Below the pieces are notes generated by a model. That model was not told the DNA's origin, did no database searches, and was given only the letters and a program-made list of their open reading frames with translations. A DNA stretch of 64,000 nt from Streptomyces clavuligerus (GTDB lineage: Bacteria > Actinomycetota > Actinomycetes > Streptomycetales > Streptomycetaceae): contig NZ_CP027858.1 in the NCBI RefSeq assembly GCF_005519465.1, positions 3,472,001 through 3,536,000 on the forward strand, read 5' to 3'. The translations under genes and the position numbers were made by a program. Numbering within the stretch: the stretch's first letter is position 1; the number at the start of each line of letters is the position of its first letter. Shown here one piece after another: positions 7,944 through 53,586 of this stretch.

Positions 7944-8110
7944 GGGTTCATGCAACGGCCGCCCCGCGCCCGCTGCCCCCGGAGCGGCCCGTACGGGTGA
8001 GCCCCCGGGCCCGGCCGTCCGCGCCCGGCCACCCGTTCGGTGCACTGCGGCTCGCCGCCCGCGCCCGCGCCCCTTTCGCTGGAGATCCCTGGACCCACGG
8101 GAGGAAGCGC

Positions 8111-37267: not shown

Positions 37268-37317
37268 CTTGACTGCTCCCCGACCGCCGCTGTTCGGCCG
37301 CGCCGCCGCAGTCGGCC

Positions 37318-37356
37318 GACGAGCACCGAGGACGAGCACCGAGGACGAGCACCGAG
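37318..37356 (+). repeat. 13-base tandem repeat, three units, in a leader
   Basis: GACGAGCACCGAG is repeated three times exactly, ending nine bases before the GTG of the cupin gene and running into its ribosome binding site (GAGGGGGAG). Confidence 0.9.
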
Positions 37357-37364
37357 GGGGAGCC

Positions 37365-38078
37365 GTGCGCGGGAACGGGAAACGGGGCACCGCGGGGGGA
37401 ACCGGCGGAACGAGTCCGGTCCCCGGGGGGCCGGAAGCGGGGACGATCGGGTTCGTCTCCCTCGGACTGGCCGAGTCGGCGCTGCGGGCCGCCCTGCACG
37501 GCACCTGGGACGGCGTCTGTAACGGCGGACTACTGCCGCCCCGCGCCCCGGCGGCCGTCGCCCACCCCAACGGGTTCGTCAAACTCCCCCTCGCCCGGCT
37601 CGCCCACGACCCCCGGCGGCTGTTCCTCCACGTCTGGCAGGACGGCTGCGAGGACGCGCACATCCACAACCACCGCTGGGACTTCGCCTCCACGCTCCTC
37701 AGCGGCGCCCTCGACAACACCGTGGTGGACATCACCCCCGCCGGGCCGCCCCGCGCGACGGACCGGACCGCCGTCCGCCACCGCCCGCACGGCGACGGCT
37801 ACCGCCTCGACGCCGACGGTGCCCGCCGCGTCGCTGTCACCGCGGTCCGCACCACCACTCTGCGCGCGGGCGACCACTACGGCATGTCCGCCCGCACCCT
37901 GCACCGCGCCACCGCACCTCCCGGCACTCTGACCCTGGTCGCCCGTGGCGCCCCCCTGCACCGGAACTCCCTCGTCCTCGTCGATGACGAAATCTCGGGC
38001 GAGCCCGTCCGCTGGACCCGGGTGAGCCCCGCCGAACGCCGGGCCCACCTGCGGCGGGCGCTGGGGTGCCTCGCGTGA
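37365..38078 (+). CDS. Cupin-like protein, first of a three-gene operon
   Basis: A 237-residue cytoplasmic protein. DAHIHNHRWDFASTLLSGAL gives an H-x-H-x-H start of a cupin metal site, and LRAGDHYGMSARTLHRATAP gives the second cupin motif with a further His. The layout recalls cysteine-dioxygenase-like cupins, but the residues around the site are not those of a family I can name. GTG at 37365 follows GAGGGGGAG. The stop overlaps the next gene (GTGA). Its partners are unrecognised, so the substrate cannot be guessed. Confidence 0.6.
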   Translation: MRGNGKRGTAGGTGGTSPVPGGPEAGTIGFVSLGLAESALRAALHGTWDGVCNGGLLPPRAPAAVAHPNGFVKLPLARLAHDPRRLFLHVWQDGCEDAHIHNHRWDFASTLLSGALDNTVVDITPAGPPRATDRTAVRHRPHGDGYRLDADGARRVAVTAVRTTTLRAGDHYGMSARTLHRATAPPGTLTLVARGAPLHRNSLVLVDDEISGEPVRWTRVSPAERRAHLRRALGCLA

Positions 38079-39466
38079 GCGGCACGGAAACGGCGGAGGC
38101 GCCGGACGGGGGAGCGGCCCCGGACCGCGACGATCCGAACACGCTCGTCCGCAGGGATGCGGTGCTCATCGTCGCGGTCCTCCTGGACAGGACCCCGGCG
38201 GAACCGTTCCGTCCCGGCCCGCTGGAGCGCGTCTGGCGCGCGGGACGTCACGACGAGGTCGTCTCCCACGCCGAACGCCGGGCGGCGTACACCGATGCCG
38301 GGCTCACCCCGCTCCTGTGGTCGCCCGAGGTCCGCTGGCACCGGGAGACGACCGGCCCAGTGGTCTCCCCCTTCGGCTTCCGCCTCGATGCCGTCGAGTT
38401 GATCCGCCTCACCGGGTCCGCACGCCAGACCCTGGCCGCCATGGGCACCCCGCCTGTCGCGAACGGGGTGGCCCTTCTCCACGGCACCCTGCCGCCCCAC
38501 GCACCCGTCCGGATGGCGAAGACCCTCCAGGAGTGTGCCGATGTGAACGCGCACCGGCCGCACCCGGCGCAGCGCATGTGGGTCGCCGACCAACTGCCGC
38601 CGGGCTGCCGGATTGCGGACTTCGAACGCAAGGCGGTCCACTGCACCCTGATGACCCCTCGGGGCGCGCTGCCCCCGCCCTACGAGGCGGACCTCCCCGA
38701 GTGGGAACTCCTCGACCAGTGGCTGTGGTCCATGCAGCACGCGACGCAGTACCCGCCGTCTGATGAGGCGCGGGAACAGCTCGACGGGATACGTTTCCCG
38801 CTGCCGCACTGCGTGCGCGCCGCACTGGGCTCGCGTGGGCTCACCCTGATCGGGGCCGACCCCGAACCAGCCCGCAACTACTACACCGGTGCCGCCTACC
38901 ACCTGACGACCCTCTACGCCGATGCCCTGGCCCTGGCCCGGTTGCAGCAGATCGTGCTGGACGCCTTCGGCGCCGAGGTGGCCCGGGTGGCCGAACGGGA
39001 ACCGGGCCGTCGGCCCGTGGCCCTGCTCGAACGCGAACTGCTGGTGTTTCGCCGGAGCTATTGGTCCGCCGGATTCGGTCGGCAGGAGAACGTCGACGAG
39101 ATGACCCGGGCCTGGCAGCGAGCCGCCGGGCTGCCCGACGCACTCCAACGGCTCACCGGCGACTTGGGCGAACTCTCCCGGCAGGTGCAGGCGGCCGAGA
39201 CCGCCACCACCAATGCGATCCTGGGGCTGATCGCCGCGTTCGGTCTGCCGCTGACCGCGGGTCTCGCCGTCTGGGCCGGGCTCCCGTCGGCGGGGACGAC
39301 CTCCCTATGGCGCTTCCTGGGTGTCATAGCGGTCGCTACGGCGGCACTCGTGGTGTTCTTCCCCGGGCTGCGTCGGCTCCTCGTCGACCTCTTCCGGCGC
39401 AGGCGCCCCGGGACGGCGGCGCGGGCGGACGGAAGGCGGTGGCGCCGATGGCTCCGCCGGAGCTGA
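38075..39466 (+). CDS. Unrecognised protein with two C-terminal membrane helices
   Basis: A 463-residue protein, mostly soluble. RRDAVLIVAVLLDRTPAEPF opens the fold; a long central region has no known motif; residues 330-375 look coiled (LQRLTGDLGELSRQVQAAET). Two helices follow (TTNAILGLIAAFGLPLTAGL; FLGVIAVATAALVVFFPGL), then a very basic tail (RRLLVDLFRRRR). The coiled segment followed by a helix pair recalls CorA-like or effector membrane proteins, but the G-x-N motif of CorA is absent. It overlaps both neighbours, so the three proteins probably act together. Confidence 0.55.
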   Translation: MSGTETAEAPDGGAAPDRDDPNTLVRRDAVLIVAVLLDRTPAEPFRPGPLERVWRAGRHDEVVSHAERRAAYTDAGLTPLLWSPEVRWHRETTGPVVSPFGFRLDAVELIRLTGSARQTLAAMGTPPVANGVALLHGTLPPHAPVRMAKTLQECADVNAHRPHPAQRMWVADQLPPGCRIADFERKAVHCTLMTPRGALPPPYEADLPEWELLDQWLWSMQHATQYPPSDEAREQLDGIRFPLPHCVRAALGSRGLTLIGADPEPARNYYTGAAYHLTTLYADALALARLQQIVLDAFGAEVARVAEREPGRRPVALLERELLVFRRSYWSAGFGRQENVDEMTRAWQRAAGLPDALQRLTGDLGELSRQVQAAETATTNAILGLIAAFGLPLTAGLAVWAGLPSAGTTSLWRFLGVIAVATAALVVFFPGLRRLLVDLFRRRRPGTAARADGRRWRRWLRRS

Positions 39467-40794
39467 GCTTCCGGTGGCCGCCCCGGCACGCCCCCGGCTT
39501 CCCGCCCGGCTGCCCCGACAGCGGTGACGTCCTCACCCGGATCGCCGAGGAGACGGCCGCCGGGACGGCCCTGACGCTCGTCGTCGTCACCAGCGCCCTG
39601 CGGGCCGCCGTCGAGGACAGCGCGGACCACGGGGCGGGACTCGCCCGGGTCCGTCGCGGCCTGGCCCGGATCGGGCACGCCGCCGGGGACGCCTGGCATC
39701 CCTCGTACTACGGGAAGGACCTCGTCCTCGTGGGCCCCGGGAGCACCCCGGCACCGGCCCGGCTGCTCGACCGGCACACCGGCGCCGGCAACGGGGTACG
39801 GCACGGCTGGGCGTGGGCCCGGCCCGTCCTGGACGGCGGCGCGGCGGACCGCGGGGAGACGCTGCTGCGCGCCTGCTACACCGTGTCGATGGCCGCCCGC
39901 GCCCGCCGGGACGCCCCCGGCGCGCTGCCGGACCACGCGGACACGGCGCTGGCACGGCTCCCGGAGCGGTACCCCGTCGCACGTCTCGCGTCCCTGCTCG
40001 CCGGGGTGCTCGTACGCCCCCACGGGAGCGAAGGCCCCGGGGCCGGCCCCGGCGAGGACCCCCGGCTGCCCGGGGTGCTCTCCGCGGACGGCTGGTCCGG
40101 CCCCACGGGAACGGGGGTCCACCTGGTGACCGACGTCCACGACATCGAGTGGGGGACGCTCGCCCGCCCCGGTGGCACCCGTCTGACCGGCGGCACCCGT
40201 CTCACCGAGGGCAACGCCGAGCGGTTGCTGCCGCTCGCCGAGTCCTGGCGCCGGGGTGGCCTGCCCCTGGGCACCGTGCTCGACCGCGCCTACGGGCTGC
40301 GTCTGGCCCGGGAGACGCTGCTCGCGGAGCATCTGCGGGTGATCAGCGACGCGGTCGGTGAACGGGGACGGGTCTTCGCCACGCTGGGGGACGGGCTGTC
40401 CGGTGTGGTCGCCGACGAGGCGACGGCCCGTGCGGCGGTCGGCGCCGCCAACCGCCGCACCGTGGGCCGCATGGCGAGCGGCGCGGGTCTGACCCTGTTG
40501 ACCGGCCAGGACCCCGATGCAGCCGCCCGCCAGGCGCAGTTCGCCCTCCATGTGACGAAGACCCTCAAAGGCACTGCGTACTCCGGAGCCGCGACCCGTC
40601 TCTTCGGCCACCGCCTCACCCCACCCGAGGCGGACGCGGCGCTCGCCTTCCTGACCGCCCTGCACACGACCGGCCCCACCGCGCCAGGCTTCCACCATCT
40701 TGCTCACGCCTATCGGTGGCGGTCCTGGTGGCGGTCTCACCTGCCGGTGGTGGCGTGGCCACGGCTGGGGGTGCTTCTCTCGGGTGTGAGGTGA
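39448..40794 (+). CDS. Unrecognised protein, third of the cupin operon
   Basis: A 448-residue soluble protein. The N-terminal part has AAGTALTLVVVTSALRAAVE; the middle shows LPGVLSADGWSGPTGTGVHL; and the C-terminal half is helical (LARETLLAEHLRVISDAVGE; DPDAAARQAQFALHVTKTLK), ending in a Trp/Arg-rich WRSWWRSHLPVVAWPR. No catalytic motif stands out. Its ATG lies 19 bases inside the preceding gene. A duplicated TRLTGGTRLTEG near residue 250 comes from a short DNA repeat. Function unknown. Confidence 0.55.
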   Translation: MAPPELSFRWPPRHAPGFPPGCPDSGDVLTRIAEETAAGTALTLVVVTSALRAAVEDSADHGAGLARVRRGLARIGHAAGDAWHPSYYGKDLVLVGPGSTPAPARLLDRHTGAGNGVRHGWAWARPVLDGGAADRGETLLRACYTVSMAARARRDAPGALPDHADTALARLPERYPVARLASLLAGVLVRPHGSEGPGAGPGEDPRLPGVLSADGWSGPTGTGVHLVTDVHDIEWGTLARPGGTRLTGGTRLTEGNAERLLPLAESWRRGGLPLGTVLDRAYGLRLARETLLAEHLRVISDAVGERGRVFATLGDGLSGVVADEATARAAVGAANRRTVGRMASGAGLTLLTGQDPDAAARQAQFALHVTKTLKGTAYSGAATRLFGHRLTPPEADAALAFLTALHTTGPTAPGFHHLAHAYRWRSWWRSHLPVVAWPRLGVLLSGVR

Positions 40795-42036: not shown

Positions 42037-42465
42037 ATGGCGTTCACCCCCTTCAGATCCTCAGCGGCACTCGCGATCGCGGCCGGACTGGCGCTGGTCC
42101 TCGGAATCCCGGGACCGGCGACGGCAGCGGACGGTCCGGCGGTGCTGGAAGTCCGTACGGAGGCACGGAACATGGACGACATGGTCCATGTGGCGACCGC
42201 CTGGGAGCACACCTTCTACGGGGGTGCGCACATCTCCTTCTACGCCAGGGACTGCCGGACGGCGGGCAGCCAGATCCTCGACTCGCTGCCCCCCGGCTGG
42301 AACGACCGGCTCAGCTCGATGCAGGTCTACAGCCAGTGCTCGGTGCGTCTCTACCGTGAACTCAACCGCCAGGGCCCCTATGTCTGGCTCCACGCGGGCA
42401 AACGGATACCGGACCTCTGGGCGGACAACGACCTGACGAGTTCGATGCTGTTCATGGCGCCGTAG
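42037..42465 (+). CDS. Secreted small protein
   Basis: A 142-residue protein with a Sec signal peptide (FRSSAALAIAAGLALVLGIP, then GPATAA; cut near residue 31). The mature part has two cysteines (YARDCRTAG and YSQCSVRLY), so one disulphide is likely, and short strands (DDMVHVATAWEHTFYGG). I recognise no family. AAGGAGAACC precedes the ATG. Its 3' end overlaps the end of the convergent nucleotidyltransferase gene by 14 bases. Confidence 0.75.
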   Translation: MAFTPFRSSAALAIAAGLALVLGIPGPATAADGPAVLEVRTEARNMDDMVHVATAWEHTFYGGAHISFYARDCRTAGSQILDSLPPGWNDRLSSMQVYSQCSVRLYRELNRQGPYVWLHAGKRIPDLWADNDLTSSMLFMAP

Positions 42466-43465
42466 CGGCTCCGTGCCGCCCGTGCGGCGGTTCGTCCGGG
42501 CCCGGTTCCCACCGCCAGGCCCGCGGCGACCACAGGGCATCCCCGTGCGCGGCCGGAGCGGCGGACGGGGATGCGAAGGGCGGTGCGGGGCGCTCCAGGA
42601 CCGGGTGCCAGAAGGCGGCGAGGCGGTCCGCCGCCTCCGGGAGGCGGCCGAGGGCCGGGGCGGTGCGGAAGACGGCGGTGTCCCAGAAGTCCAGCCACTC
42701 CCGGGGCGGCGGGGGCAGCCGGAGCGGCCAGGCGCGGCGCATGGGGGCGAACTCGGCCGCCACATCGCGGCGCAGCCCGTCCAGGGAGAGCCGGGGCGCC
42801 CGGTGGCACCTGGCCACCAGGAGGAAGTCCAGCAGATCGGACCAACGGGTGTTGACCTTCCCGCTCTCGCGCCGCCGGGTGTAGCGCAGCAGCTTCTGGG
42901 CGAGACAGCGGCTGAGCGTCGCCGCCGGGACGGTGACCGTGGCCGCTCCCGGACCGTTCCCGCCGTACGGGAAGGCGAGCGGGGCGGTACGGGTGTCGTG
43001 CGCGGCGGAGTCGTCCGGTGTCAGCAGGACGTTCAGCAGGACACGGTCGTACAGCTCGCGGCCGTACAGCTCGCGGTCGTGCAGGACCCGGTCGTCCAGG
43101 CGCTCCCGCGGACCGTGCGGCGGTGGCCCGTCCACCTCGACGAGGACCCGGTGCACGGTCGCCCGGCCCGGTGAGCCGAAGACGACCGGCTCGGTCCGCA
43201 GGACCGTGATCCGCTCGCCGCCCGGCCCCGGCGGCAGCCCGGTGGCCGTCAGCAGCAGCGGACCGGCGCTCTCCGGCAGCGAGAGATCCACATCCTCCGG
43301 CATCCGTGCCCCCGGGCCGATCCGGCCGAGGATCGCCGCCGAGCCCTTGAGGTGCCAGCCGTGCGGCGGCAGCAGCCGGTTCAGACCGGCGAGCACGGCG
43401 CCGATCGCGCGCAGCGACTGCCGGTCCCGGGTGGGCGTCCGGGCGGTGCCCCACACGTCGTCCAT
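42452..43465 (-). CDS. AbiEii-type nucleotidyltransferase paired with the RT
   Basis: A 337-residue protein with a nucleotidyltransferase-beta fold. HGWHLKGSAAILGRI corresponds to the K-G-G/S-T-A-L motif, and RMPEDVDLSLPES gives the D-x-D metal pair. LAQKLLRYTRRRESGKVNTR then WSDLLDFLLVARC matches the later E/Q-K-L...R-x-K-D-x-x-D block of the AbiEii/AbiGii family. AbiEii enzymes are the toxins of type IV toxin-antitoxin systems and transfer nucleotides to tRNA or other targets. No AbiEi antitoxin lies nearby; instead GGGAGG and 28 bases separate it from the reverse transcriptase gene upstream. Confidence 0.65.
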   Translation of the reverse strand: MDDVWGTARTPTRDRQSLRAIGAVLAGLNRLLPPHGWHLKGSAAILGRIGPGARMPEDVDLSLPESAGPLLLTATGLPPGPGGERITVLRTEPVVFGSPGRATVHRVLVEVDGPPPHGPRERLDDRVLHDRELYGRELYDRVLLNVLLTPDDSAAHDTRTAPLAFPYGGNGPGAATVTVPAATLSRCLAQKLLRYTRRRESGKVNTRWSDLLDFLLVARCHRAPRLSLDGLRRDVAAEFAPMRRAWPLRLPPPPREWLDFWDTAVFRTAPALGRLPEAADRLAAFWHPVLERPAPPFASPSAAPAAHGDALWSPRAWRWEPGPDEPPHGRHGAATAP

Positions 43466-43493
43466 GTCGCCTGCCTCCCTGTGGATTCAGGGC

Positions 43494-44765
43494 TCACAGC
43501 AGGGTGTCCACCGACGGCGGGCTGTCCCGGACGTCCGCTCCCCGCTCCAGCCACCGCAGCATGCGGACCGGTGGCTCCGGAAGCCCGCCGGGCCGTCCGC
43601 CGACCGCCCCCGCCCGCACCGCCAGTGCCGTCAGCGCCGGGATGCCGGACGAGGCCGCCGCCGCGAGCACCGCGTCCGGGACCGCGTCGGCCACCGCGCG
43701 GTGCCGTCCCGCGAGCGCCAGCAGCCGCCCCGCCGCGAAGAGCCCTACCGCCGCGAAGAGTTGACCCGGGTCGCCCTCCCCGGCCCCCTCCAGCAGCTCG
43801 TGCGCGGCGGCCAGCCCCTCCCGTGTGCCCACCGCCCGGTCCAGATAACGCACGGCGCGCGGCAGGAGTTCCGGCCGGGCCCGGACCACCCCGGGCAGGC
43901 TCCGGCTGACCTCCGCCCCGGGCGCGAGCCGGGGCAGCGCGTACCGCAGCGAGCGGAGGTCGTCCGTCGCCAGCCCCTGCCGCCACACCCGTTCCGCCGG
44001 TCCCGCCACATCCCGGGCGACCCCGGTGAGCAGGGTGTCCACCGGGCCGACGCCGGTCTTCCCGGTGGCCGGCCGCAGTCCGAGCCCGGCGAGCGCCGCC
44101 GTCATCGCCGCCCGCACCTCCTGTGCCTCGTCGGCTCCGGACACGCACACATGCCAGTCGTCGCCCCAGCGCACCCACCGCCCCGGCGCCCGTTCCGCCA
44201 GCACCGCGTCGACGGGGTCCAGTACCGCCGTGCCGAGCCTGCTGGCCCAGCGGTGCCCCGGCAGCAGACAGCGGCCGGAACGGGTGTGCAGCGCGGTCAG
44301 CCGTTCCGCGAGCGCGCCCGTCATCCAGGCGGCACGGAGCAGCACGTCCAGCGGCAGGGAGCGGAAGAAGCGGTGGACGTCCAGCGTGAGGACGTACGGG
44401 AGTTCGTCGCGGCACTCCCCGAGCGCGCGCAGCCGCTCCTGCCGGGCCCGGTAGCCGTGCCGGTACTCCCAGGTGGCGGAGCGGTAGCCGAACACCTCCG
44501 GGCGTGGCCGGTACCCGGCGAGGGCCCGTTCGGCGAGGGCGTGCAGATGGGCGCGGACGTCGGGGCCGACCACGGGCGCCGGTTCCGCGCGACACGCCGG
44601 AGGGACCGTGATCCAGCCGACCTCCAGCGGCGGCGGTTCCGCCGTGGGACGCAGATACGGCAGCGCATCGACGGCTCCGAGGGCGTCGGGTATCAGCTCC
44701 GTCAACAGATCCTGGCCGAAACTCTCCCTGAGAGCCCGGTCAACCAGAAGGACTTCGTCTCCCAC
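43494..44765 (-). CDS. Reverse transcriptase with helical C-terminal domain (Abi/DRT-like)
   Basis: A 423-residue protein with reverse transcriptase motifs in order: YVLTLDVHRFFRSLPLDVLL (motif A, catalytic Asp near residue 128), LLPGHRWASRLGTAVLDPVD (motif B), RWVRWGDDWHVCV (motif C, G-D-D near 200, in place of Y-x-D-D), and LGLRPATGKTGV (motif D). The last 190 residues are helical with HEAT-like repeats (DDLRSLRYALPRLAPG; ELLPRAVRYLDRAVGT), like abortive-infection RTs such as AbiK. No intron maturase, Cas1 or integrase domain is present. It shares a transcript with the nucleotidyltransferase. The GTG at 44765 lacks a clear ribosome binding site and leaves only 46 bases to cas3. Confidence 0.75.
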   Translation of the reverse strand: MGDEVLLVDRALRESFGQDLLTELIPDALGAVDALPYLRPTAEPPPLEVGWITVPPACRAEPAPVVGPDVRAHLHALAERALAGYRPRPEVFGYRSATWEYRHGYRARQERLRALGECRDELPYVLTLDVHRFFRSLPLDVLLRAAWMTGALAERLTALHTRSGRCLLPGHRWASRLGTAVLDPVDAVLAERAPGRWVRWGDDWHVCVSGADEAQEVRAAMTAALAGLGLRPATGKTGVGPVDTLLTGVARDVAGPAERVWRQGLATDDLRSLRYALPRLAPGAEVSRSLPGVVRARPELLPRAVRYLDRAVGTREGLAAAHELLEGAGEGDPGQLFAAVGLFAAGRLLALAGRHRAVADAVPDAVLAAAASSGIPALTALAVRAGAVGGRPGGLPEPPVRMLRWLERGADVRDSPPSVDTLL

Positions 44766-44811
44766 AGCGGCATCATGGCACCCGGTCGCACGGCGGTAAG
44801 GGGGGAAGCAC

Positions 44812-47800
44812 GTGGCCGCCAGGGGGAAAGTGCGCGACATGAGAGCGCGGGGGCCGCTGGACATCCGGCGCGCCCTGGGCATTCTGTGGGCGAAATCGCC
44901 GGATCGGGCGGGCGGCACGATGAATCTGCTGCTCTCGCATCTGCTGGACACGGCGGCCGTCGCCGGAGTGATGTGGGACCGCTTTCTGCCCCGCGTTGTC
45001 CACGAGGAGCTGGACCGGGTGGCCGGAGGTCCGGGCCGGGGTCGCGGACTGCTCATGTGGCTCTGCGGCATCCATGACTTCGGCAAGGCCACGCCCTCCC
45101 ACCAGCGGCAGCGGCCCGAGCTGGCAGCCGAGTTGCCCGCCGCCGGACTCGGCTGGGAGGAGGAGATCGGGGAGCGGTACAGGTGGGAGCACGCCCCGGC
45201 GGGGGCCTTTCTGCTGCGTCCGCTGCTGACCGGAGCGGGCTGGCCGCAGGAGCACATCCGGTGGGTGTGGCCGCTGGTCGCCGGACACCACGGGTTCTTC
45301 CCCGTGGAGAGCGCCCTCGGGTCACCGCCCGCCGCGTTGCGCCGTGTCGACGGTGACAGCGCGTGGGAAGCAGTCCGGCAGAAGTTGATGTGCGTGATTC
45401 TGGACGAACTCGGCTTCGGGGACGGCCTCGACGGCCTCGCCGCTCTGTGCCCCGCCCGTCCGCCGTCCCGCGCTCTCCAGCTCCAGATCAGCGGCCTGGT
45501 GGTGATGGCCGACTGGATCGCCTCCGGCCCGGAGAACTTCCCCGGCGTCGATGTCCTGGAGGACGTGTCGTACGCGGGGGCGCGGCGCCGTGCCGAGGCC
45601 GCCTGGGCCGCGATCGGGCTCCAGGGCGGCTTCCGGTACCTGGCCGAGCCGGGCCCCGGGACGTTCCGCCGCCGCTTCGGCCACGACCCCCGCCCCGTGC
45701 AGGAGTTGGCGGCCCGCGCCGCCCGCGAACTCGACGGGCCGGGCCTGCTGATCGTCGAGGCGCCCCCGGGCGAGGGCAAGACCTGGGCCGGGCTGATCGC
45801 GGCCGAGACCCTCGCCGCCCGCACCGGCGCCGGAGGCGTCTTCGTCGGTATGCCGGTCCACTCCACCTGCGACCCGATGTTCCGGCGGGTACGGGAGTGG
45901 GTACGCGGCATCGACGAGGCCCTGGCCCCGGCGGTCGCCCTGCTCCACGGGCGGCGCACCCTCGACAGGAGCTGGAACGTCCTGCTGCCCCAGGACGCCG
46001 TCGGCCACTGCGGAGAGGAACCCGCGGCGGCGGTGCACGGCACCGCGGGCGATCCCCGTCTCGTTCCCGCCCAGTGGTTCTTCGACTACGCGCGCGGGCT
46101 GCTCTGCCCCTTTGTCGTGGCCCCCCTCGACCAGCTCCTGTACGCGACCACCCGCACCAAGTTCGTGATGCTCCGCATGGCGGGCCTGCCGGGCAAGGTG
46201 GTCGTCCTGGACGAGATCCACGCCGTGGACGTCCACGCCCAGCAGTACCTCCAGGAAGGGCTGCGCTGGCTGGGGCAGGCCCGGGTCCCCGTCGTCCTGC
46301 TGTCGGCGACCCTGACCGCCGGGCAGCGGCGCTCCCTCGTGGACGCGTACCTCGCGGGCGCGGCGGGCGAGGAGGAGTACACGTACGACGGCCTTCCGCA
46401 GCCCGACGGATACCCCTCGGTGACCGCCGTCCGGTACGACCACGGCGGCGACGGAGCGGCACCCCGGTGCGTCGTCCGCCGCTGTGCCAGCGCGCTGAGG
46501 GAACGGGACGTCATCGTCGAGATCCTTCCGGAGGGCCCCGAGGGCGCGGAGGACACCGCCGTCGACCGGGCCGTCGCCGATCGGGCCGTCGCCGCCCTGC
46601 TCGGCGAAGCGCTCGCCGACGGCGGTCGCGCCCTGGTCGTCCGCAACACCGCCCACCGCGCCCAGACCCTCTGGACCGGGCTGCGCACCCGTTTCGGCGA
46701 CGAGGTCCTGCTGCTGCACCGGCAGTTCACGGCGGAGCGGCGCGCGGAGATCGCCGACGACTGTCTGCGGCAGCTCGCCCCCGGCTCCCCGGAGCGGCCC
46801 CGACGGTTGATCGTCGTCGCCGACCAGACCGCCGAGCAGGCGTTCGACGTGGACGTGGACCTCCTGGTCACCGATCTGGCCCCCATCGATCTGCTGCTCC
46901 AGCGCGCCGGACGGCTGCACCGCGACACCACCGTGGTCCGGCCGGTCCGCCTGGCCGCGCCCCGGCTCGTCGTCACCGGCACCACCGCCGTGTCCGGGAC
47001 CGGCGGGCCGCCGCGCTTCCCCGCCCGTTCCACGGCCCTCTACGGACGTCATCCGCTGCTCCGCGCCGCACACCTGGTCCACCGCGCGGCCCGGACGGGC
47101 GCCCGGCTGCCCGGCGCCGTCCCCCGGCTGGTCGGCGAGGGATACGCCGACGGCGACACGGACCTCCCGGACGGCTGGCGGGCCACCGCCGGGGCGGCGC
47201 GCGAGCAGGCGCGACGGGACCGGGAACGGCGGGTGGAGCGCGCCGTCCCCCGACTGCTCACCCGGCGCGGCGACGGACGGGGGCGGACGCTGGGCGGGCT
47301 GAGCTACATCGGCCTGCCCCCGGCCGACGGGGACGAGGGCCTGTCCGCCCTGGTCCGCGACCGGGCCGCGGCCGAGGCGATCCTCCTCGTCCGGGACGGC
47401 ACCGGCTACCGGACCCCGTGCGGCACGGCCCTCGGCCCCGAGGGCTTCGTGGCCGACCGGGACGACCGGCTGGTCGACCTCGTCCGCCGCCACACCGTGG
47501 AACTGCCCGTGAGCTGGTGGGGACAGCCCGCGCTGAAGCTGGGGCCGCTCCCCGTCTGGGGCCGGAAACCGAAGGTCAACTACCGCCTGGTGACGGCCCG
47601 GGTGCTGATCCTGGACGAGCACCACCGGGGCGTACTCGGCGGCCGTGCGGTGCGCTACGACGCCGATCTCGGACTCGTCGAAGCCGAAGCCGAAGCCGAA
47701 GCCGGACTCGAAGTCGAAGCCGATGCCGGAGCTGATGCCGGAGCCGAAGTTGGAGTCGGAGTCGAACCCGGAGTCGAAGCCGAAGCCGAACGGGGCCTGT

Positions 47801-47889
47801 CCGGCAGCTCCGTCGACGGGACAGGCCACGGCCCGGCGGAGAATCCCCCGGACCGACGGAGCCCCATGGGGGGAGAGCTGTGGATCTGA
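44812..47889 (+). CDS. cas3: Cas3, type I-E nuclease-helicase
   Basis: A 1025-residue protein with an N-terminal HD nuclease and SF2 helicase. HD residues: LLLSHLLDTAA (H), CGIHDFGKATPSH (H-D), YRWEHAPAG (H), VAGHHGFF (H-H). Helicase: APPGEGKTWAG (Walker A, about 317), VVVLDEIHAVD (D-E-I-H, about 466), LLSATLTAGQR, and LLQRAGRLHRD (motif VI). It unwinds and cuts DNA marked by Cascade. The last 70 residues are an (EA)n/(GA)n repeat tail from GAAGCC hexamers, not part of the family. GGGGGAAG precedes the GTG. It overlaps cas8e by ten bases. Confidence 0.97.
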   Translation: MAARGKVRDMRARGPLDIRRALGILWAKSPDRAGGTMNLLLSHLLDTAAVAGVMWDRFLPRVVHEELDRVAGGPGRGRGLLMWLCGIHDFGKATPSHQRQRPELAAELPAAGLGWEEEIGERYRWEHAPAGAFLLRPLLTGAGWPQEHIRWVWPLVAGHHGFFPVESALGSPPAALRRVDGDSAWEAVRQKLMCVILDELGFGDGLDGLAALCPARPPSRALQLQISGLVVMADWIASGPENFPGVDVLEDVSYAGARRRAEAAWAAIGLQGGFRYLAEPGPGTFRRRFGHDPRPVQELAARAARELDGPGLLIVEAPPGEGKTWAGLIAAETLAARTGAGGVFVGMPVHSTCDPMFRRVREWVRGIDEALAPAVALLHGRRTLDRSWNVLLPQDAVGHCGEEPAAAVHGTAGDPRLVPAQWFFDYARGLLCPFVVAPLDQLLYATTRTKFVMLRMAGLPGKVVVLDEIHAVDVHAQQYLQEGLRWLGQARVPVVLLSATLTAGQRRSLVDAYLAGAAGEEEYTYDGLPQPDGYPSVTAVRYDHGGDGAAPRCVVRRCASALRERDVIVEILPEGPEGAEDTAVDRAVADRAVAALLGEALADGGRALVVRNTAHRAQTLWTGLRTRFGDEVLLLHRQFTAERRAEIADDCLRQLAPGSPERPRRLIVVADQTAEQAFDVDVDLLVTDLAPIDLLLQRAGRLHRDTTVVRPVRLAAPRLVVTGTTAVSGTGGPPRFPARSTALYGRHPLLRAAHLVHRAARTGARLPGAVPRLVGEGYADGDTDLPDGWRATAGAAREQARRDRERRVERAVPRLLTRRGDGRGRTLGGLSYIGLPPADGDEGLSALVRDRAAAEAILLVRDGTGYRTPCGTALGPEGFVADRDDRLVDLVRRHTVELPVSWWGQPALKLGPLPVWGRKPKVNYRLVTARVLILDEHHRGVLGGRAVRYDADLGLVEAEAEAEAGLEVEADAGADAGAEVGVGVEPGVEAEAERGLSGSSVDGTGHGPAENPPDRRSPMGGELWI

Positions 47890-49814
47890 TCGAAGCACCC
47901 TGGCTCGTCGCACGGCGCGACGACGGCGGCGAGGACTCCGTCGGCCTGCGCGCACTGCTGCTGAACGCCCATCGCTACACGGACCTGGAGGTCGAACTCC
48001 CCACCCAGAAACCCGCGATCCTGCGCCAGGTGCTGCTGCCCGTCGTCGTCGACGCGCTCGGCTTCCCCGAGACCCCCGAGGAGTGGGCGGAGCACTTCCA
48101 CGCGCCGGACGGCTTCACCGGGCAGGCCGCCGAGCGGCTGACGGAGTACCTGGACGAGCACCGCGACCGGTTCGGGCTCTTCGACCCCGTCGACCCCTTC
48201 GCCCAGGTCGGAGGGCTCCGCACCGGCAAGGACGAGACCCGGAACTCCGCACTGATCGTCGCGACGGCGGCGAGCGGGAACAACGTCCCCTTCTGGTCCG
48301 CGCGGACCGACGGACAGGCGCCCCGGCTCAGCCCCGGGCGGGCCGCCCACTGGCTGCTCCACACCCACTGCTGGGACCCCGGGGCCATCAAGACCGGGGC
48401 CTTCGGGGACCCCCGGGCCAGGGCCGGGAAGGTCATGGGCAACCCCACCGGCCCCCTCGGCGCGCTGGGCCTCGTGCTGCCGATGGGCCGCACCCTGTAC
48501 GAGAGCCTGTGGCTGAACGTCCCCTTCGGCGTGACCCGGCTCGCCGGCGATCTGCCGCAGTGGCGCCGCAGGGACCGGGAGGGACCCGTCGAGGAGACCC
48601 GGTCCACGGCCACCCCCGGCTGGGACAGCCGCCCCCCGCGCGGCCCGCTCGACGCGTGGACCTGGCAGGCCCGCCGCATCCGGCTCGTCCCCGAGACCGC
48701 CCCCCAAGATGCGGACGGGGACGGGGAGCCCGAGGTCAACCGGGTCGTCGTGGCGGCGGGCGACCGGCTGCGGCTCCAGCCCGACCACGAGTTCCACACC
48801 GCGTGGACCGTCGACAGCCAGACCGTCCACCGCAAACGGCTCGCGAAGGACCCGGACGCCCTCCAGATCCGGCCCCGGCGGCACCGCGCCGGACGGGCGG
48901 CCTGGCGGGGGCTCGACGCGCTGCTCGCCGTGGAGGGATCGACCTGGCAGCAGGACGCCACGGAGGTCGGCCAGGGCTTCCACACCGCCCAGATCCTGGT
49001 GAAACTGGCGGAGGCCGGTGCGGAGCTGCCGCCGGACTATCCGCTCCGGCTGGAGCTGACCGGGATCGCCTACAACAGCAAGTTCAGTGCCATCGAGGAC
49101 ACCTTCCACGACGAGCTCCCGCTGCCGGTCGCCGCCCTGCGCCGGGACGGTCTGGTCCGGGCCGCCCTGATCGGGGCCGTGGCCCAGGCCGAGCGGCTCG
49201 CGGACGCCGTCAACCGGCTGGTGGCCGACCTGCGCCGCGCCGCCGGTGCCCGGCCGGTCCCCGGGGGCGAGTGGCAGCACCCCGGCGAGAGCCTGCTGCA
49301 CGCGCTCGACCCGGTCGTACGGCTGCTGCTGCGGCTGCTGCGCACGTCCGACGAGGACTTCGACCGCGTCGACGAGCTGCTGCGGGCCTGGGAGGAGAAA
49401 GCGGGCCGCGAGACCTGGAAGGTGGCGGAACACCTGCTGGCGCAGAGCCCGCCGGGGCTGTTCCAGGGCAGCGTCCTCGTCCAGGGCGGAAAGACCCGTA
49501 CCTATCGGCTGAGCACCGCCGAGCGGACCTTCCGCGACACGCTGGACGACACCCTGTGGCGGCGCGCGAACCGGCGGAAGGGCCGTGGGAACGCGCTGTC
49601 GTCCGTGGTGCAGGGGCAGCCCTTGGGGCCGCCGGGGCAGGAGTTCCGCGCCGAGCAGCCCGACGGAAGCCGCCAAGGAAGCCACCAAGGAAGCCCCGGC
49701 GGAAAGCCCGACGCGGGGCCCGGCGGAAGGCCCGGTACGGAGCCCCATGGAAAGCCCGACGCGGGGCCCGGCGGAAGGTCCGCTACGGCGCCCGATGGAG
49801 AGGGGGCGGCATGA
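47880..49814 (+). CDS. casA: Cas8e (Cse1), large subunit of type I-E Cascade
   Basis: A 644-residue protein. DLIEAPWLVARRDDG is the standard Cse1 opening (family: F-N-L-x-x-x-P-W-I-P-V); VGLRALLLNAHRYTDLEVEL, LPVVVDALGFPETPEEW, and WALLHTHCWDP-type segments (HWLLHTHCWDPGAIKTG) follow. It recognises the PAM and recruits Cas3. The C-terminal 55 residues are a low-complexity tail of repeated DAGPGG and GGKPDAGPGG units. GGGGGGAG precedes the GTG. It overlaps cas3 and cse2. Confidence 0.95.
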   Translation: MDLIEAPWLVARRDDGGEDSVGLRALLLNAHRYTDLEVELPTQKPAILRQVLLPVVVDALGFPETPEEWAEHFHAPDGFTGQAAERLTEYLDEHRDRFGLFDPVDPFAQVGGLRTGKDETRNSALIVATAASGNNVPFWSARTDGQAPRLSPGRAAHWLLHTHCWDPGAIKTGAFGDPRARAGKVMGNPTGPLGALGLVLPMGRTLYESLWLNVPFGVTRLAGDLPQWRRRDREGPVEETRSTATPGWDSRPPRGPLDAWTWQARRIRLVPETAPQDADGDGEPEVNRVVVAAGDRLRLQPDHEFHTAWTVDSQTVHRKRLAKDPDALQIRPRRHRAGRAAWRGLDALLAVEGSTWQQDATEVGQGFHTAQILVKLAEAGAELPPDYPLRLELTGIAYNSKFSAIEDTFHDELPLPVAALRRDGLVRAALIGAVAQAERLADAVNRLVADLRRAAGARPVPGGEWQHPGESLLHALDPVVRLLLRLLRTSDEDFDRVDELLRAWEEKAGRETWKVAEHLLAQSPPGLFQGSVLVQGGKTRTYRLSTAERTFRDTLDDTLWRRANRRKGRGNALSSVVQGQPLGPPGQEFRAEQPDGSRQGSHQGSPGGKPDAGPGGRPGTEPHGKPDAGPGGRSATAPDGEGAA

Positions 49815-50584
49815 CCGCCGGTACATCCCCGTCCGACACCCCGGCCGGCACCCCGTCCGACACCCGGTCCGAACGGGACACCGCGCCCGAACGGGACACC
49901 GCGCCCGAACGGGACACCGTGCCCGGGGCCGCGCGCCGCACCGGGCCGCCCCGCTACTGGCACCGCCATGTGGGAGCCGACGGCGCCTGGCGGAAGGAGC
50001 ACACCGGCGGGCCGCCCGGCGAGGACCTGGCGGCCCTGCGCGCGGGTCTCGGGAAGCCCGCAGGGACCGTTCCGTCGCTGTGGCAGCACTACACCAGTCG
50101 CACCGACGGCAGGCCCACCCCCGAACTGGAGGCCGAGCACGGCGCCCTCTCCCTCTACGGCCTGCACCAGCAGAGCCGGCGCAGGCCCATGCACCGGCCC
50201 GGCGTGGGCCTCGGCGAGGCCCTGCGCAGGCTGCGGCAGAGCGGCGGCGTCAGCGCGGACGCCCTCGACCGCCGTACCGCCGCCGCCGTGAACGCCACCT
50301 CCGTGCCCGCCCTGCTGTACCGGCTGCGCGGGCTGATCCCGCAACTGCGGTCCGCCGCCATCCCCCTCGACTACGACCAGCTCCTGCGCGATCTGCGGAA
50401 CTGGGCCCACCCCGAGTCCCGGCAGCGCGTCCGCCGGACCTGGGGGCTCGCCTACCACACCGACAAGCGGGACGTGCCCGAGGAACCCGTCCCCTCCGCC
50501 CCCGACCCGGCCGGGCAGGCCCCCGCACCGGCCACCACCGCGACAGCCCCAGCACACCGCGCACCGGACCAGGAGACCCCGTGA
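49811..50584 (+). CDS. casB: Cse2 (Cas11e), small subunit of type I-E Cascade
   Basis: A 257-residue protein, longer than usual (about 160-200). The family core is seen in LWQHYTSRTDGRPTPELEAE, ALSLYGLHQQSRRRPMHRPG, GLGEALRRLRQSGG, and VPALLYRLRGLIPQLRSAAI. Helical subunits of this type line the crRNA and target strand. The N-terminal 40 residues are an 18-base repeat product (ERDTAPERDTAPERDT) and the C-terminal 35 are Pro/Ala-rich. The ATG overlaps the cas8e stop (ATGA). Confidence 0.93.
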   Translation: MTAGTSPSDTPAGTPSDTRSERDTAPERDTAPERDTVPGAARRTGPPRYWHRHVGADGAWRKEHTGGPPGEDLAALRAGLGKPAGTVPSLWQHYTSRTDGRPTPELEAEHGALSLYGLHQQSRRRPMHRPGVGLGEALRRLRQSGGVSADALDRRTAAAVNATSVPALLYRLRGLIPQLRSAAIPLDYDQLLRDLRNWAHPESRQRVRRTWGLAYHTDKRDVPEEPVPSAPDPAGQAPAPATTATAPAHRAPDQETP

Positions 50585-51744
50585 CCGGCCCCGTGACCGA
50601 CACCGCGCCCCGCGCCTACATCGACGTCCACATCCTCCAGACCGTCCCCCCGGCCAACCTCAACCGCGACGACCAGGGCAACCCCAAGGAGGCCATGTTC
50701 GGCGGGGTGCGCCGCTCCCGGGTCTCGTCCCAGGCGTGGAAGCGCGCCACCCGGATGCACTTCACCGAACGGCTGCCCCGGGAGGGCCTCGCGACCCGCA
50801 CCCGGCGGGTCGCCGACGTCCTCGCCCGGCGGATCGAGCAGCTCACCGAGGTGCCGCCGGAGGGCTCCGCCCGGCTCGCGCGGGCGCTGCTCGCCCCGTT
50901 GGGGATCAAGGAGGGCAAGAAGGACGGCGACACGGCCTATCTCTTCTTCTACGGCCGGGGCCAGCTCGACGCCGTGGTCGGCCTGATCGAGGACGAGGCC
51001 CTGGAGCTGGCCGCGCTCGACGACAAGGCGCTGGCCAAACGGGTCGAATCGTTCGACGTACGGGGGAGGTTCGGCAGCGGACACCCGCTCGACGTGGCCC
51101 TCTTCGGCCGGATGGTCGCCGATGTCCACGCGCTGAAGGTCGACGCCGCCACCCAGGTCGCCCACGCCCTGTCCACCCATGCCGTGGAGCTGGAGTTCGA
51201 CTACTTCACCGCCGTCGACGACGAGACGAAGGACGAGGGACCGGGCGCCGGGATGATCGGCACCATCGGCTTCAACTCGGCCACCCTCTACCGCTACGCC
51301 ACGGTGGGGCTGCACCAGCTCCACGACAACCTCGGCGGGTCCGACGAGGGAACCGTCGACGGCGTCCGGGACTTCGTCGGCTCCTTCGCCCGCTCCGTCC
51401 CCTCCGGTTACACCAACTCCTTCGCCCATCGGACCCTGCCCAGCCTGGTCGCGGTCGTGGTCCGCTCCGACCAGCCGGTGAACCTCGTCTCCGCCTTCGA
51501 ACGGCCCGTCTCCTCCGTCCGGGGCATCTCCGAGAAGTCGGCCTCCGCGCTCGCGGACGAGCACACACGGGCCGTGCGCAACTGGGGCGACACCCCCTCC
51601 TTCACCTCCGTCTGCCACGCGTACGAGGACAGCGCGGACACCGCCGGGAAGCTGCGGGACGCGTTCGGCGACCCGGTGGACTTCCCCGCGCTGCTGGCCG
51701 GTCTGGGGGACCATCTGGCGACGCTGCTGCGGGGGCCGCGATGA
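50581..51744 (+). CDS. casC: Cas7e (Cse4), backbone subunit of type I-E Cascade
   Basis: A 387-residue protein. YIDVHILQTVPPANLNRDDQ, then the diagnostic MFGGVRRSRVSSQAWKRATR, and GMIGTIGFNSATLYRYATV followed by PSGYTNSFAHRTLPSLV are hallmark Cas7e stretches. It forms the helical filament that holds the crRNA. The GTG overlaps the cse2 stop (GTGA). No insertion is seen, unlike in its neighbours, which suggests that the filament tolerates none. Confidence 0.97.
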   Translation: MTGPVTDTAPRAYIDVHILQTVPPANLNRDDQGNPKEAMFGGVRRSRVSSQAWKRATRMHFTERLPREGLATRTRRVADVLARRIEQLTEVPPEGSARLARALLAPLGIKEGKKDGDTAYLFFYGRGQLDAVVGLIEDEALELAALDDKALAKRVESFDVRGRFGSGHPLDVALFGRMVADVHALKVDAATQVAHALSTHAVELEFDYFTAVDDETKDEGPGAGMIGTIGFNSATLYRYATVGLHQLHDNLGGSDEGTVDGVRDFVGSFARSVPSGYTNSFAHRTLPSLVAVVVRSDQPVNLVSAFERPVSSVRGISEKSASALADEHTRAVRNWGDTPSFTSVCHAYEDSADTAGKLRDAFGDPVDFPALLAGLGDHLATLLRGPR

Positions 51745-52643
51745 CCCCTCCCGGCGCCCATGGCCCTCAGAGTGCCGGTGCCGCTGCTGGTGCTGGTGCT
51801 GGGGGTGCGGACGCCGCAGCCGCTGCCGGGGCCGTGCTGCTGCTGCGGCTCGCGGGCCCGCTCCAGTCCTGGGGCTCCGCCAGTGCGTTCAACAGCCGCC
51901 AGACCGGGGCCGAGCCCACCAAGTCCGGGGTGATCGGGCTGCTCGCCGCCGCCGACGGGCGGGCGCGGGGCGCCTGCATCGAGGATCTGCGGGCGCTGCG
52001 CCTCGGGGTCCGCGTCGACCGGTCCGGGACCCTGTTGCGGGACTACCACACCGCGAGCGACCATCGGGGCCGTCCGCTGGCCCAGGCGGGCGTCGGCGCC
52101 AAGGGGACCCAGCGGCCTACGTCCCCCGCGAAGTACACGCAGGTCACGACCCGTTACTACCTTCAGGACGCGGTCTTCCTCGCCGCCCTCGCGGGCCCCC
52201 GCGCCCTGCTCGACCGGCTCGACCGGGCGGTCCGGGCCCCCGCCTTCCCGCTGGCGCTCGGCCGCCGTTCCTGTGTGCCCTCGCTGCCGCTGGCCCTGGG
52301 GGTCCACCCGGGTTCCCTGGGCGAGGTCCTGAGCACCCACCCCTGGGCGGTCTCCGCGTACGCCCGCGACCTGTACGCCCGACAGCTCGGTCACGAACGG
52401 GCCGAGGACGGCGGGCCCCAGCGCGGCCCGGCCGCCATCGACCGCCCGGTGACGCTGGACGACCCGGACGGGGACGACCGGCTCCAGGACGCCCCCGTCT
52501 CCTTCGACCCCGTCGACCGCCGTTTCACCGGCCGCCGGGTGACCCGGACCTGGGTCCGCGTCCCCACCGGCCTCACCCCGCCGGACGGGGCATCCGACCA
52601 CGACGACGCCGGGCACGACCCGTTCGCCCTGCTGGGCAGGTGA
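51741..52643 (+). CDS. casD: Cas5e, crRNA 5'-handle subunit of type I-E Cascade
   Basis: A 300-residue RAMP protein. LLLRLAGPLQSWGSASAFNS, then RQTGAEPTKSGVIGLLAAAD are the Cas5e signatures; RYYLQDAVFLAALAGP, LALGRRSCVPSLPLALG follow. It binds the 5' handle of crRNA. An Ala/Gly-rich tract (residues 10-30) precedes the usual start of the fold near LLLRLAG, another added segment. The ATG overlaps the cas7 stop (ATGA). Confidence 0.95.
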   Translation: MTPPGAHGPQSAGAAAGAGAGGADAAAAAGAVLLLRLAGPLQSWGSASAFNSRQTGAEPTKSGVIGLLAAADGRARGACIEDLRALRLGVRVDRSGTLLRDYHTASDHRGRPLAQAGVGAKGTQRPTSPAKYTQVTTRYYLQDAVFLAALAGPRALLDRLDRAVRAPAFPLALGRRSCVPSLPLALGVHPGSLGEVLSTHPWAVSAYARDLYARQLGHERAEDGGPQRGPAAIDRPVTLDDPDGDDRLQDAPVSFDPVDRRFTGRRVTRTWVRVPTGLTPPDGASDHDDAGHDPFALLGR

Positions 52644-52647
52644 CCGC

Positions 52648-53586
52648 ATGAGCTATCTCTCCCGTATCCGTATCAATCCGCTCCGGGCGGAGAGCCGCAA
52701 ACTGCTGGCCAGCCCCCGTGCCATGCACGGGGCCGTCCTGGGCGGTGTCCCGGGCGGGGCCGGTGCTCCCGGCATGCCCGGCGTCCCCGGCGTGCCCGGC
52801 GTGCCCGGTGTTTCTGAGGGGACGGAGGGTGAGCAGGCGAAGGGGGCGCCCCGGGTGCTGTGGCGGCTGGACGCGGACGATCCGCACCGGCCGCAGCTCT
52901 ATGTCCTGACCCCCGGCCGTCCCGACTGGTCCCATGTCGTCGAACGAGCGGGCTGGCCGGACGCGGACGGCGAGCACGCCGTCATCCGCGACTGCGCGCC
53001 GCTCATCGAACGGCTCGCCGTGGGACAGGAGTACGCGTTCCGGCTGACCGCCAACCCCGTGCAGACCACCGCCACGCCCGTCCGGCCGACCTCCGCCCAG
53101 GAGAAGCGGATCGCGGAACGGGTGGAGGGCGAGCGCCCGCGCGGCTTCCGGCTGGCGCACCGTACGGCCGCGCATCAGCTCAACTGGTTTCTGCGCCGGA
53201 CGGACGGCTGGGGCTTCGCGGTGCCGCCCTCGCGCACGGACCCGGCCGCACCGGGGCTCGACGCGGCTTCGGGGCTCGACGCGGCTTCGGGGCTCGACGG
53301 GGCTTCGGGAGGTGACGGGGCTTCTGGAGGTGACGGAGGGCCGGATTCCGTCGGGGCACGGGACCCCGTGCGCGAGGTCCGGATCACCGCCCGGCAGCGG
53401 CACACGTTCAGCAAGGGCCGCCGGGGGACGCAGGTGACCTTCCACAGCGCCACCTACGAGGGGCTGCTGCGGGTCACCGATCCGGAGCTGCTGGCCGCCC
53501 GGCTCCTCGGCGGCATCGGACCGTCCAAGGCGTACGGCTGCGGCCTGCTGACCCTCGCCCCCGCGCCGCCGGGAGGGGACGGCTGA
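52648..53586 (+). CDS. casE: Cas6e, crRNA-processing endonuclease
   Basis: A 312-residue RAMP nuclease. SYLSRIRINPLRAESRKLLA starts the fold; RAMHGAVLGG carries the catalytic His27; the C-terminal GIGPSKAYGCGLLTL is the glycine-rich loop. It cuts the precursor crRNA at each repeat hairpin, so its presence implies that an array exists elsewhere. Two repeat insertions occur: a collagen-like GMPGVPGVPGVPGV after the catalytic His, and GLDAASGLDAASGLDGASGG near residue 210. It starts four bases after cas5. Confidence 0.95.
   Translation: MSYLSRIRINPLRAESRKLLASPRAMHGAVLGGVPGGAGAPGMPGVPGVPGVPGVSEGTEGEQAKGAPRVLWRLDADDPHRPQLYVLTPGRPDWSHVVERAGWPDADGEHAVIRDCAPLIERLAVGQEYAFRLTANPVQTTATPVRPTSAQEKRIAERVEGERPRGFRLAHRTAAHQLNWFLRRTDGWGFAVPPSRTDPAAPGLDAASGLDAASGLDGASGGDGASGGDGGPDSVGARDPVREVRITARQRHTFSKGRRGTQVTFHSATYEGLLRVTDPELLAARLLGGIGPSKAYGCGLLTLAPAPPGGDG

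Follow-up and report, generated by a model that had tools for sequence, protein, structure and literature searches.

A conserved five-gene block with a reverse transcriptase and an AbiEii-like nucleotidyltransferase beside a type I-E CRISPR effector set in Streptomyces

What role might a reverse transcriptase (RT) and an AbiEii-like nucleotidyltransferase (NTase) play beside the effector genes of a type I-E CRISPR system? The question is raised by a stretch of 64,000 nucleotides from Streptomyces clavuligerus (contig NZ_CP027858.1, positions 3,472,001 to 3,536,000; hereafter the window, whose own coordinates are used throughout), in which an earlier note, made from the letters alone, had proposed such a pair at 42452..44765. 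Both genes do lie there, 28 bases apart and with a good ribosome binding site between them, and they are divergent from a type I-E operon whose six effector genes all score over their profile cut-offs. The proposed span holds for the RT and the NTase, but the conserved unit extends to about 37.3 kb; similarly, the interpretation was built on a real pairing, but missed that cas1-cas2 are lacking and that three more genes, including a CorA-like one, are conserved. Here, we show that these five genes (cupin-like, CorA-like, X, NTase and RT) move as one unit, are present all or none, and are co-inherited with the Cas genes. Tentatively, and with somewhat less than even confidence, we read the block as a second, cell-level accessory effector arm on a I-E set without adaptation genes.

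Gene content and conserved residues of the block

We compared nine loci from nine genomes, namely the window and loci from S. antioxidans (L009), S. buecherae (L010/L026), S. flavofungini (L011), S. longispororuber (L012) and S. alboflavus (L013), together with L023, L024 and L025. The five-gene block is complete in all nine, as are RT, NTase, cas3 and the Cascade genes, with RT divergent from cas3 in every case (cse1 and cse2 of L023 are located in the next stretch of that genome). A three-gene operon (cupin-like, CorA-like, X; 37269-40794 in the window) is convergent with the NTase gene in 9/9 loci, and cas3 and the Cascade genes share one strand in seven. In the window, the cupin-like, CorA-like and X genes thus run towards the NTase-RT pair, which in turn points away from cas3 through cas6. 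The features are as follows.

37269..38078, plus strand: cupin-like protein; start codon not certain, conserved from about 37.5 kb on
38066..39466, plus strand: CorA-like protein, 466 aa; PADLOC CorA models
39448..40794, plus strand: X, 448 aa; convergent with the NTase gene, no family match
42452..43465, minus strand: AbiEii-like NTase, 337 aa; Pfam AbiEii, PADLOC AbiEii
43494..44765, minus strand: RT, 423 aa; GTG start at 44765, stop ending at 43494, WGDD, no Cas1 fusion
44766..44838, no strand: RT-cas3 intergenic region; GTGnCATnnTGC directly before the RT start in nine loci (alignment of nine regions)
44839..47889, plus strand: cas3; ATG at 44839, open reading frame (ORF) opening with GTG at 44812; TIGR01596 and TIGR01587 over cut-off
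47880..49814, plus strand: cse1/casA; TIGR02547, 145.2 bits (cut-off 70.05)
49811..50584, plus strand: cse2/casB; TIGR02548, 102.9 bits (cut-off 28.5)
50581..51744, plus strand: cas7e; TIGR01869, 290.1 bits (cut-off 178.05)
51741..52643, plus strand: cas5e; TIGR01868, 160.4 bits (cut-off 68.95)
52648..53586, plus strand: cas6e; TIGR01907, 80.5 bits (cut-off 45.2)

Profile searches agree with the assignment of both enzymes. The PADLOC model PDLC01135, entitled "RT associated with distinct I-E system from Streptomyces", matches RT residues 15-423 (E 3.1e-188). The PADLOC models UG33 (8e-9), UG22 (4e-8) and UG20 (1e-7) give partial matches far below it, and a group II RT model (E 3e-7) and Pfam RVT_1 (E 0.35) both stay under cut-off. 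The catalytic motifs noted earlier are intact across 25 aligned RTs, with motif A Asp129 and motif C Asp202 present in 25/25 and Asp203 in 24/25; the helical C-terminal half that the note described is a putative feature. A natural WGDG replaces WGDD at motif C of the S. uncialis RT (P0022), the sole case among the 25. The C-terminal residues TLL (window 43497-43505) are invariant (25/25), which suggests that a free C-terminus may be functional in this RT. No cas1 gene lies beside the RT gene or is fused to it; the single Cas1 of the S. clavuligerus genome is of another type and 1.03 Mb distant.

The NTase gene follows across a gap of 28 bases (43466-43493; projected gaps across loci, 29-98 bases), with GGGAGG directly upstream of its ATG as the ribosome binding site. 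Its product scores 23.9 bits against Pfam AbiEii (PF08843; cut-off 22.5) and E 1.1e-20 against PADLOC AbiEii, with weak profile matches to Rv1045 and to guanylyltransferase-like toxin chains (E 0.005-0.008). Across 28 aligned NTases, Asp58 and Asp60 of the DxD motif, Lys191, Asp210 and Asp213 are all fully conserved (28/28), and in the GS motif Gly41 occurs in 28/28 and Ser42 in 23/28. None of the other block genes matches an AbiEi antitoxin; the partner gene of the NTase is the RT. Some NTase relatives (P0056-P0065, P0069 and P0072, from S. koyangensis, Kitasatospora and Nonomuraea) have no RT among the matches listed, and some of their longest contigs encode X.

The three remaining proteins are less readily assigned. 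X is well conserved (mean column identity 57%; at least 47 homologues among the matches listed), and its 15 searched members gave no Pfam or PADLOC match; a profile search of the PDB gave none either. The order of its motifs TDVHDIEWGT and TLGDGLSG resembles that of class III cyclases, and we do not claim X as a nucleotide cyclase, the Pfam, PADLOC and PDB profiles giving none at E ≤10. The CorA-like protein owes its name to PADLOC CorA models, which match 9/9 members over the C-terminal part only (E 6.1e-9 for the window's protein); no Pfam match of the latter is over cut-off. Read by eye, the alignment shows a soluble N-terminal part and a hydrophobic C-terminal part resembling two membrane helices. 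The label cupin-like likewise comes from reading the alignment, in which an HxH...H pattern (conserved HPNGFVKLPL, HxHRW and a later His) stands out; two members searched against Pfam gave no cupin match, and no PDB match was found.

The I-E effector set cas3-cse1-cse2-cas7-cas5-cas6 is complete (44839-53586) by NCBIfam domain models over their cut-offs, with the long Cas3 equivalog model NF007248 under cut-off for the window's cas3 (193 of 569 bits). Downstream of cas6e lie convergent PET-hydrolase-like and aminotransferase genes, without cas1-cas2. The cas7e gene is the sole cas7e match in the S. clavuligerus genome (6.75 Mb C1 and 1.80 Mb C2). RT and cas3 are separated by 46-73 bases, depending on the choice of start codon, and we read GTGnCATnnTGC as a putative -10 element of a leaderless RT transcript. 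A dedicated noncoding RNA beside the RT was considered and rejected: no Rfam match occurs in the window, and the intergenic gaps, including the RT-cas3 region, are too short for one.

Several neighboring features complete the picture of the window. Two small ORFs lie between X and NTase and match no other genome among the 105 loci compared. One of them, at 42037-42465, overlaps the 3' end of the NTase gene and scores just over cut-off for Pfam Inhibitor_I36, likely encoding an I36-type inhibitor. Adjoining the block is a gene for a fusion of P450 with a flavodoxin/FAD reductase (33895-37203), which is found beside the cas genes in the genome G094 (see below) too and in none of the other compared loci. 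An ARAGORN call of tRNA-Asn at 49854-49946, within cse2, overlaps a short tandem repeat and is probably false.

All-or-none presence and the missing cas1-cas2

The neighborhood is no one-off. Of 392 Streptomyces genomes drawn, seven have the RT, the identical seven have the NTase, and all seven carry cas7e. With regard to a spread across actinobacteria, which the earlier note had raised, pairing is strict within this Streptomyces draw, but a class-level draw (394 genomes, 137 genera) gave a full RT match only in the S. clavuligerus genome itself; a match in G402 covering just 48 RT positions was set aside. Among the listed matches (29 RT, 44 NTase and 47 X), the longest contigs are shared by at least 17 RT-NTase, 12 RT-X and 19 NTase-X pairs, all lower bounds given that one contig is shown per cluster and 8000 candidates were scored. 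Eleven longest contigs appear in the NTase and X lists and not in the RT list. We do not take this as a real absence of RT, because only those 8000 candidates were scored and because the list lacks RTs present in the compared loci, that of L012 being at most 78% identical to any RT listed. Carriage of the block by plasmids or viruses was rejected: RT, NTase, CorA-like protein and the X relative P0075 found no match in 72,556 plasmid records (from which records near the S. clavuligerus genome were possibly excluded), and the NTase had no relatives in viral contigs.

The clearest contrast comes from G094, whose gene order largely matches the window from about 20.4 to 53.6 kb (the P450-reductase fusion, then cas genes), with 1.5 kb in place of window 37.2-44.9 kb. 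Within the 60 kb compared, no block gene finds a match better than E 0.03. G094 also has other stretches unmatched against the window, for instance 23.6-30.0 kb. Three further genomes (G316, G023 and G205) carry Cas genes of the same lineage and no block in the stretches compared, and genome-wide searches found no RT or NTase match in any of the four. Cascade can therefore persist without the block.

A tree of Cas7e from 29 loci groups the nine RT loci with those of G094, G316, G023 and G205 in one strongly supported clade. Mapping the RT label onto this tree needs two changes, a single change sufficing in 0% of 200 bootstrap trees. Moderate support (91/86) nests the RT-less G094 among the RT loci, so that it has probably lost the block. 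Pairwise distances of block and Cas proteins correlate (r 0.78-0.98; 0.98 for RT and cas3).

The second shared property of these loci is what they lack. None of the nine RT loci has an effector set ending in cas1-cas2. A I-E Cas1 (TIGR03638) is over cut-off in two of the nine RT genomes, and not in that of S. clavuligerus; any Cas1 (PF01867) is found in three, namely S. clavuligerus and two of the other eight. Of the 151 cas7e genomes in the 392-genome draw (132 over the search's own cut-off), a limit of E < 1e-51 retained 129 and one of E < 1e-75 retained 111. Among those with strong cas7e (E < 1e-75), a I-E Cas1 occurs in 2/7 with RT versus 86/104 without (Fisher p 0.004), and at the looser limit in 2/7 versus 89/122 (p 0.023); these p values are only a guide, since the genomes are related (G031 and G154, for example, are sisters). 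Because the relatives G316 and G023 have cas1 after cas6 (directly after it in G316, as two cas1 pieces at that place in G023), the RT lineage has probably lost cas1-cas2. G094 has neither a I-E Cas1 match nor the block. In S. antioxidans, a second cas6 with cas1 and cas2 (by Pfam) and arrays lies at L009:16102-18231, some 1.7 kb past the block's cupin-like gene.

CRISPR arrays and the weighing of possible roles

If no adaptation genes accompany the effector set, are there arrays to serve it? I-E-like paired repeats are found in all nine RT genomes (28 pairs in S. clavuligerus and 4 to 57 in the other eight). On C2 of S. clavuligerus (G000:C2:204746-233855; L056, L057), 13 small I-E-like arrays of 2-6 repeats hold 36 spacers. 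Twelve of the 13 carry a common leader; one trailer-end spacer recurs in four arrays, and the remaining 32 of the 36 spacers are unique. Seven of these array units, when aligned, have about 700 bases of upstream DNA in common (79-100% identity). The arrays are a scattered, amplified mini-array family, and it looks as if a leader-array unit was duplicated and then gained new leader-side spacers.

A related observation comes from the sister genomes G031 and G154 (93% DNA identity over about 106 kb aligned; single contigs), neither of which encodes a detectable Cas1. Their orthologous array (L061, G031:C1:4049675; L066, G154:C1:3972219) keeps its leader and has no spacer in common, so that the spacers have changed since the two genomes split; a second, degenerate array has one spacer in common. 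Cas1 acting from elsewhere, its recent loss, array exchange or another route may account for the change. Spacers are mostly 32 nt (74/84 in G064; 31/37 on C2 of S. clavuligerus), the size given for I-E (PMC4762764). No phage match was obtained for one 8-kb array stretch of G064, and for one 7-kb stretch of C2 in S. clavuligerus none of the seven phage-search records falls on a spacer by position.

From the gene content, catalytic residues, co-inheritance and all-or-none presence of the block, we infer how an accessory effector arm might work. Cascade-Cas3 would target DNA using guides from arrays elsewhere in the genome. Once infection is sensed, the RT and NTase would synthesize or activate a product of nucleic-acid or nucleotide nature, the RT, which has no RNA gene of its own, working template-free or using crRNA, phage RNA or host RNA. 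Downstream of RT and NTase, the CorA-like protein would be the final, toxic component, acting at the membrane, and X and the cupin-like protein might generate the signal, trim it or abolish it. According to the available text of PMC10600005, type III-B CRISPR systems use CorA-family proteins as membrane effectors; we assign the CorA-like protein a putative membrane effector role because of this type III precedent and the PADLOC matches in all nine loci. A more specific proposal, which we regard as unlikely, is a type I, DNA-targeting CRISPR system with built-in type III-like signalling, in which a messenger made by RT and NTase (possibly with X) would open a CorA-like channel and arrest the cell.

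Several points weigh against an accessory effector arm. The order from RT and NTase to CorA is a guess from gene content, the CorA match is limited to the C-terminal part of its protein, X and the cupin-like protein are without assigned function, and the whole proposal is drawn from sequence. In two of the nine loci (L009 and L023) the Cascade genes are on the opposite strand, convergent with cas3. Four genomes (G094, G316, G023 and G205) have same-lineage Cas genes and neither RT nor NTase, and the distance correlations lack a housekeeping-gene control, shared genome descent explaining part of r.

One alternative is that the block is a stand-alone abortive-infection system, similar to the defence-associated RTs (DRT), that only shares a defence locus with I-E and does not interact with it. 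The RT matches several UG/DRT models (E 8e-9 to 3e-4), the NTase is AbiEii-like, and G094 demonstrates that block and cas genes are separable. However, the RT is divergent from a same-lineage I-E cas3 in 9/9 loci, cas7e is present in all seven RT genomes of 392, and the RT-cas3 distance correlation reaches 0.98, and we consider independence rather unlikely. The plain type IV toxin-antitoxin, with the NTase as toxin and the RT as antitoxin or primer partner, draws on the same AbiEii likeness, on two genes in one apparent operon and on their being retained together. It is the least probable explanation in our assessment, as no AbiEi-type match exists among the other block genes and an antitoxin RT would not be expected to keep its catalytic residues, yet it does. 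Scarcely more probable is a guard of the CreTA type, in which Cascade with a degenerate guide would repress the block and loss of Cascade would free a toxin. The short divergent RT-cas3 promoter region would suit such control, and AbiEii-like proteins are known as toxins (by family name). In the six of nine loci scanned, though, no degenerate guide beside the toxin was found: in five, the best repeat-like site was no better than 3-base-block shuffles (11, 33, 27, 90 and 100 of 100 as good), and in the sixth, L023, the site at 8025 proved to be where an ordinary array ends.

A further alternative is that RT and NTase replace Cas1-Cas2, with the RT turning RNA or DNA of the invader into spacers by an adaptation route independent of Cas1. 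In its favor are the scarcity of I-E Cas1 in RT genomes (2/9, any Cas1 3/9, versus 86/104 RT-less strong-cas7e genomes), the arrays in all nine, the C2 arrays of S. clavuligerus, which appear as if they gained leader-side spacers after duplication (32/36 unique), and the array of the Cas1-less G031 and G154 with its conserved leader and no common spacer. A I-E variant of Streptomycetaceae in which TnsB/TnsC stand where cas1-cas2 would be has, moreover, been proposed as an alternative adaptation system (PMC12231136, available text). Conversely, no integrase is recognized in the block, the RT neither adjoins nor is fused to Cas1, and Cas1 may be provided from elsewhere or may be a recent loss. 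We hold this substitution to be quite improbable because the spacers are mostly of the usual I-E size of 32 nt and because G094 is without both I-E Cas1 and block. Were the block linked to adaptation instead, it would explain the different spacers in related arrays of genomes without I-E Cas1. For the accessory effector arm as for its alternatives, the five genes, and especially X with no detected family, together with the all-or-none contrast offered by G094, make the question testable in laboratory Streptomyces.

Comparison with known systems

Silas 2017 (PMC5513706, branch 10) reported RTs next to the I-E effector genes of several Streptomyces and called their function unexpected, and Toro 2018 (PMC6013744) describes these RTs as lacking RT0 and RT7, carrying WGDD and standing far from group II RTs, naming S. 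clavuligerus (ATCC 27064), S. lydicus A02 and MUSC164. The window RT is of the same family, with WGDD and a place beside cas effector genes; the five-gene block, its all-or-none presence and the lack of Cas1 do not appear in the available text of these two papers. myRT 2021 (PMC8934634) reports cas3 adjoining three such I-E RTs and an AbiEii gene adjoining two. The earlier statement that no RT-AbiEii pair had been described must therefore be withdrawn, given this passing mention and the dedicated RT model in PADLOC. The AbiEii adjacency is alike in both cases; there, as far as the available text goes, it comes without a conservation test, and the words CorA and cupin are absent from the main text.

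Other sources touch on parts of the system. According to the available text of PMC11507055, each S. clavuligerus genome has two cas operons and one system of type I-B. The 2025 classification (PMC12669027) discusses CorA with type III systems, and its available text describes no I-E system with RT, AbiEii or CorA. In the open literature we found no description of the five-gene block; Shmakov 2018, which falls outside that scope, may contain part of it.

Among characterized systems, the CorA-NrN type III-B system (PMC10600005, available text) resembles the block in its CRISPR-linked CorA-like membrane protein with a soluble N-terminal part. It differs in that the chassis here is type I-E and the CorA-like protein is accompanied by RT, NTase, X and the cupin-like protein instead of NrN or SAM lyase; no Cas10 match was found among the cas and block genes, the rest of the genome not having been searched for Cas10. 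With the AbiE type IV toxin-antitoxin, the NTase shares its Pfam family and the G-S and D-x-D motifs, whereas here no AbiEi partner is recognized and the partner is an RT. The Streptomycetaceae I-E systems with TnsB/TnsC (Faure 2019, per the available text of PMC12231136) are similar as Streptomyces I-E effectors without cas1-cas2; no Tns gene is recognized among the block genes here, and the RT/NTase block is present instead. Against this background, the core RT-NTase pair was already known, and what goes beyond the available text is the five-gene block, its all-or-none presence and the lack of Cas1.

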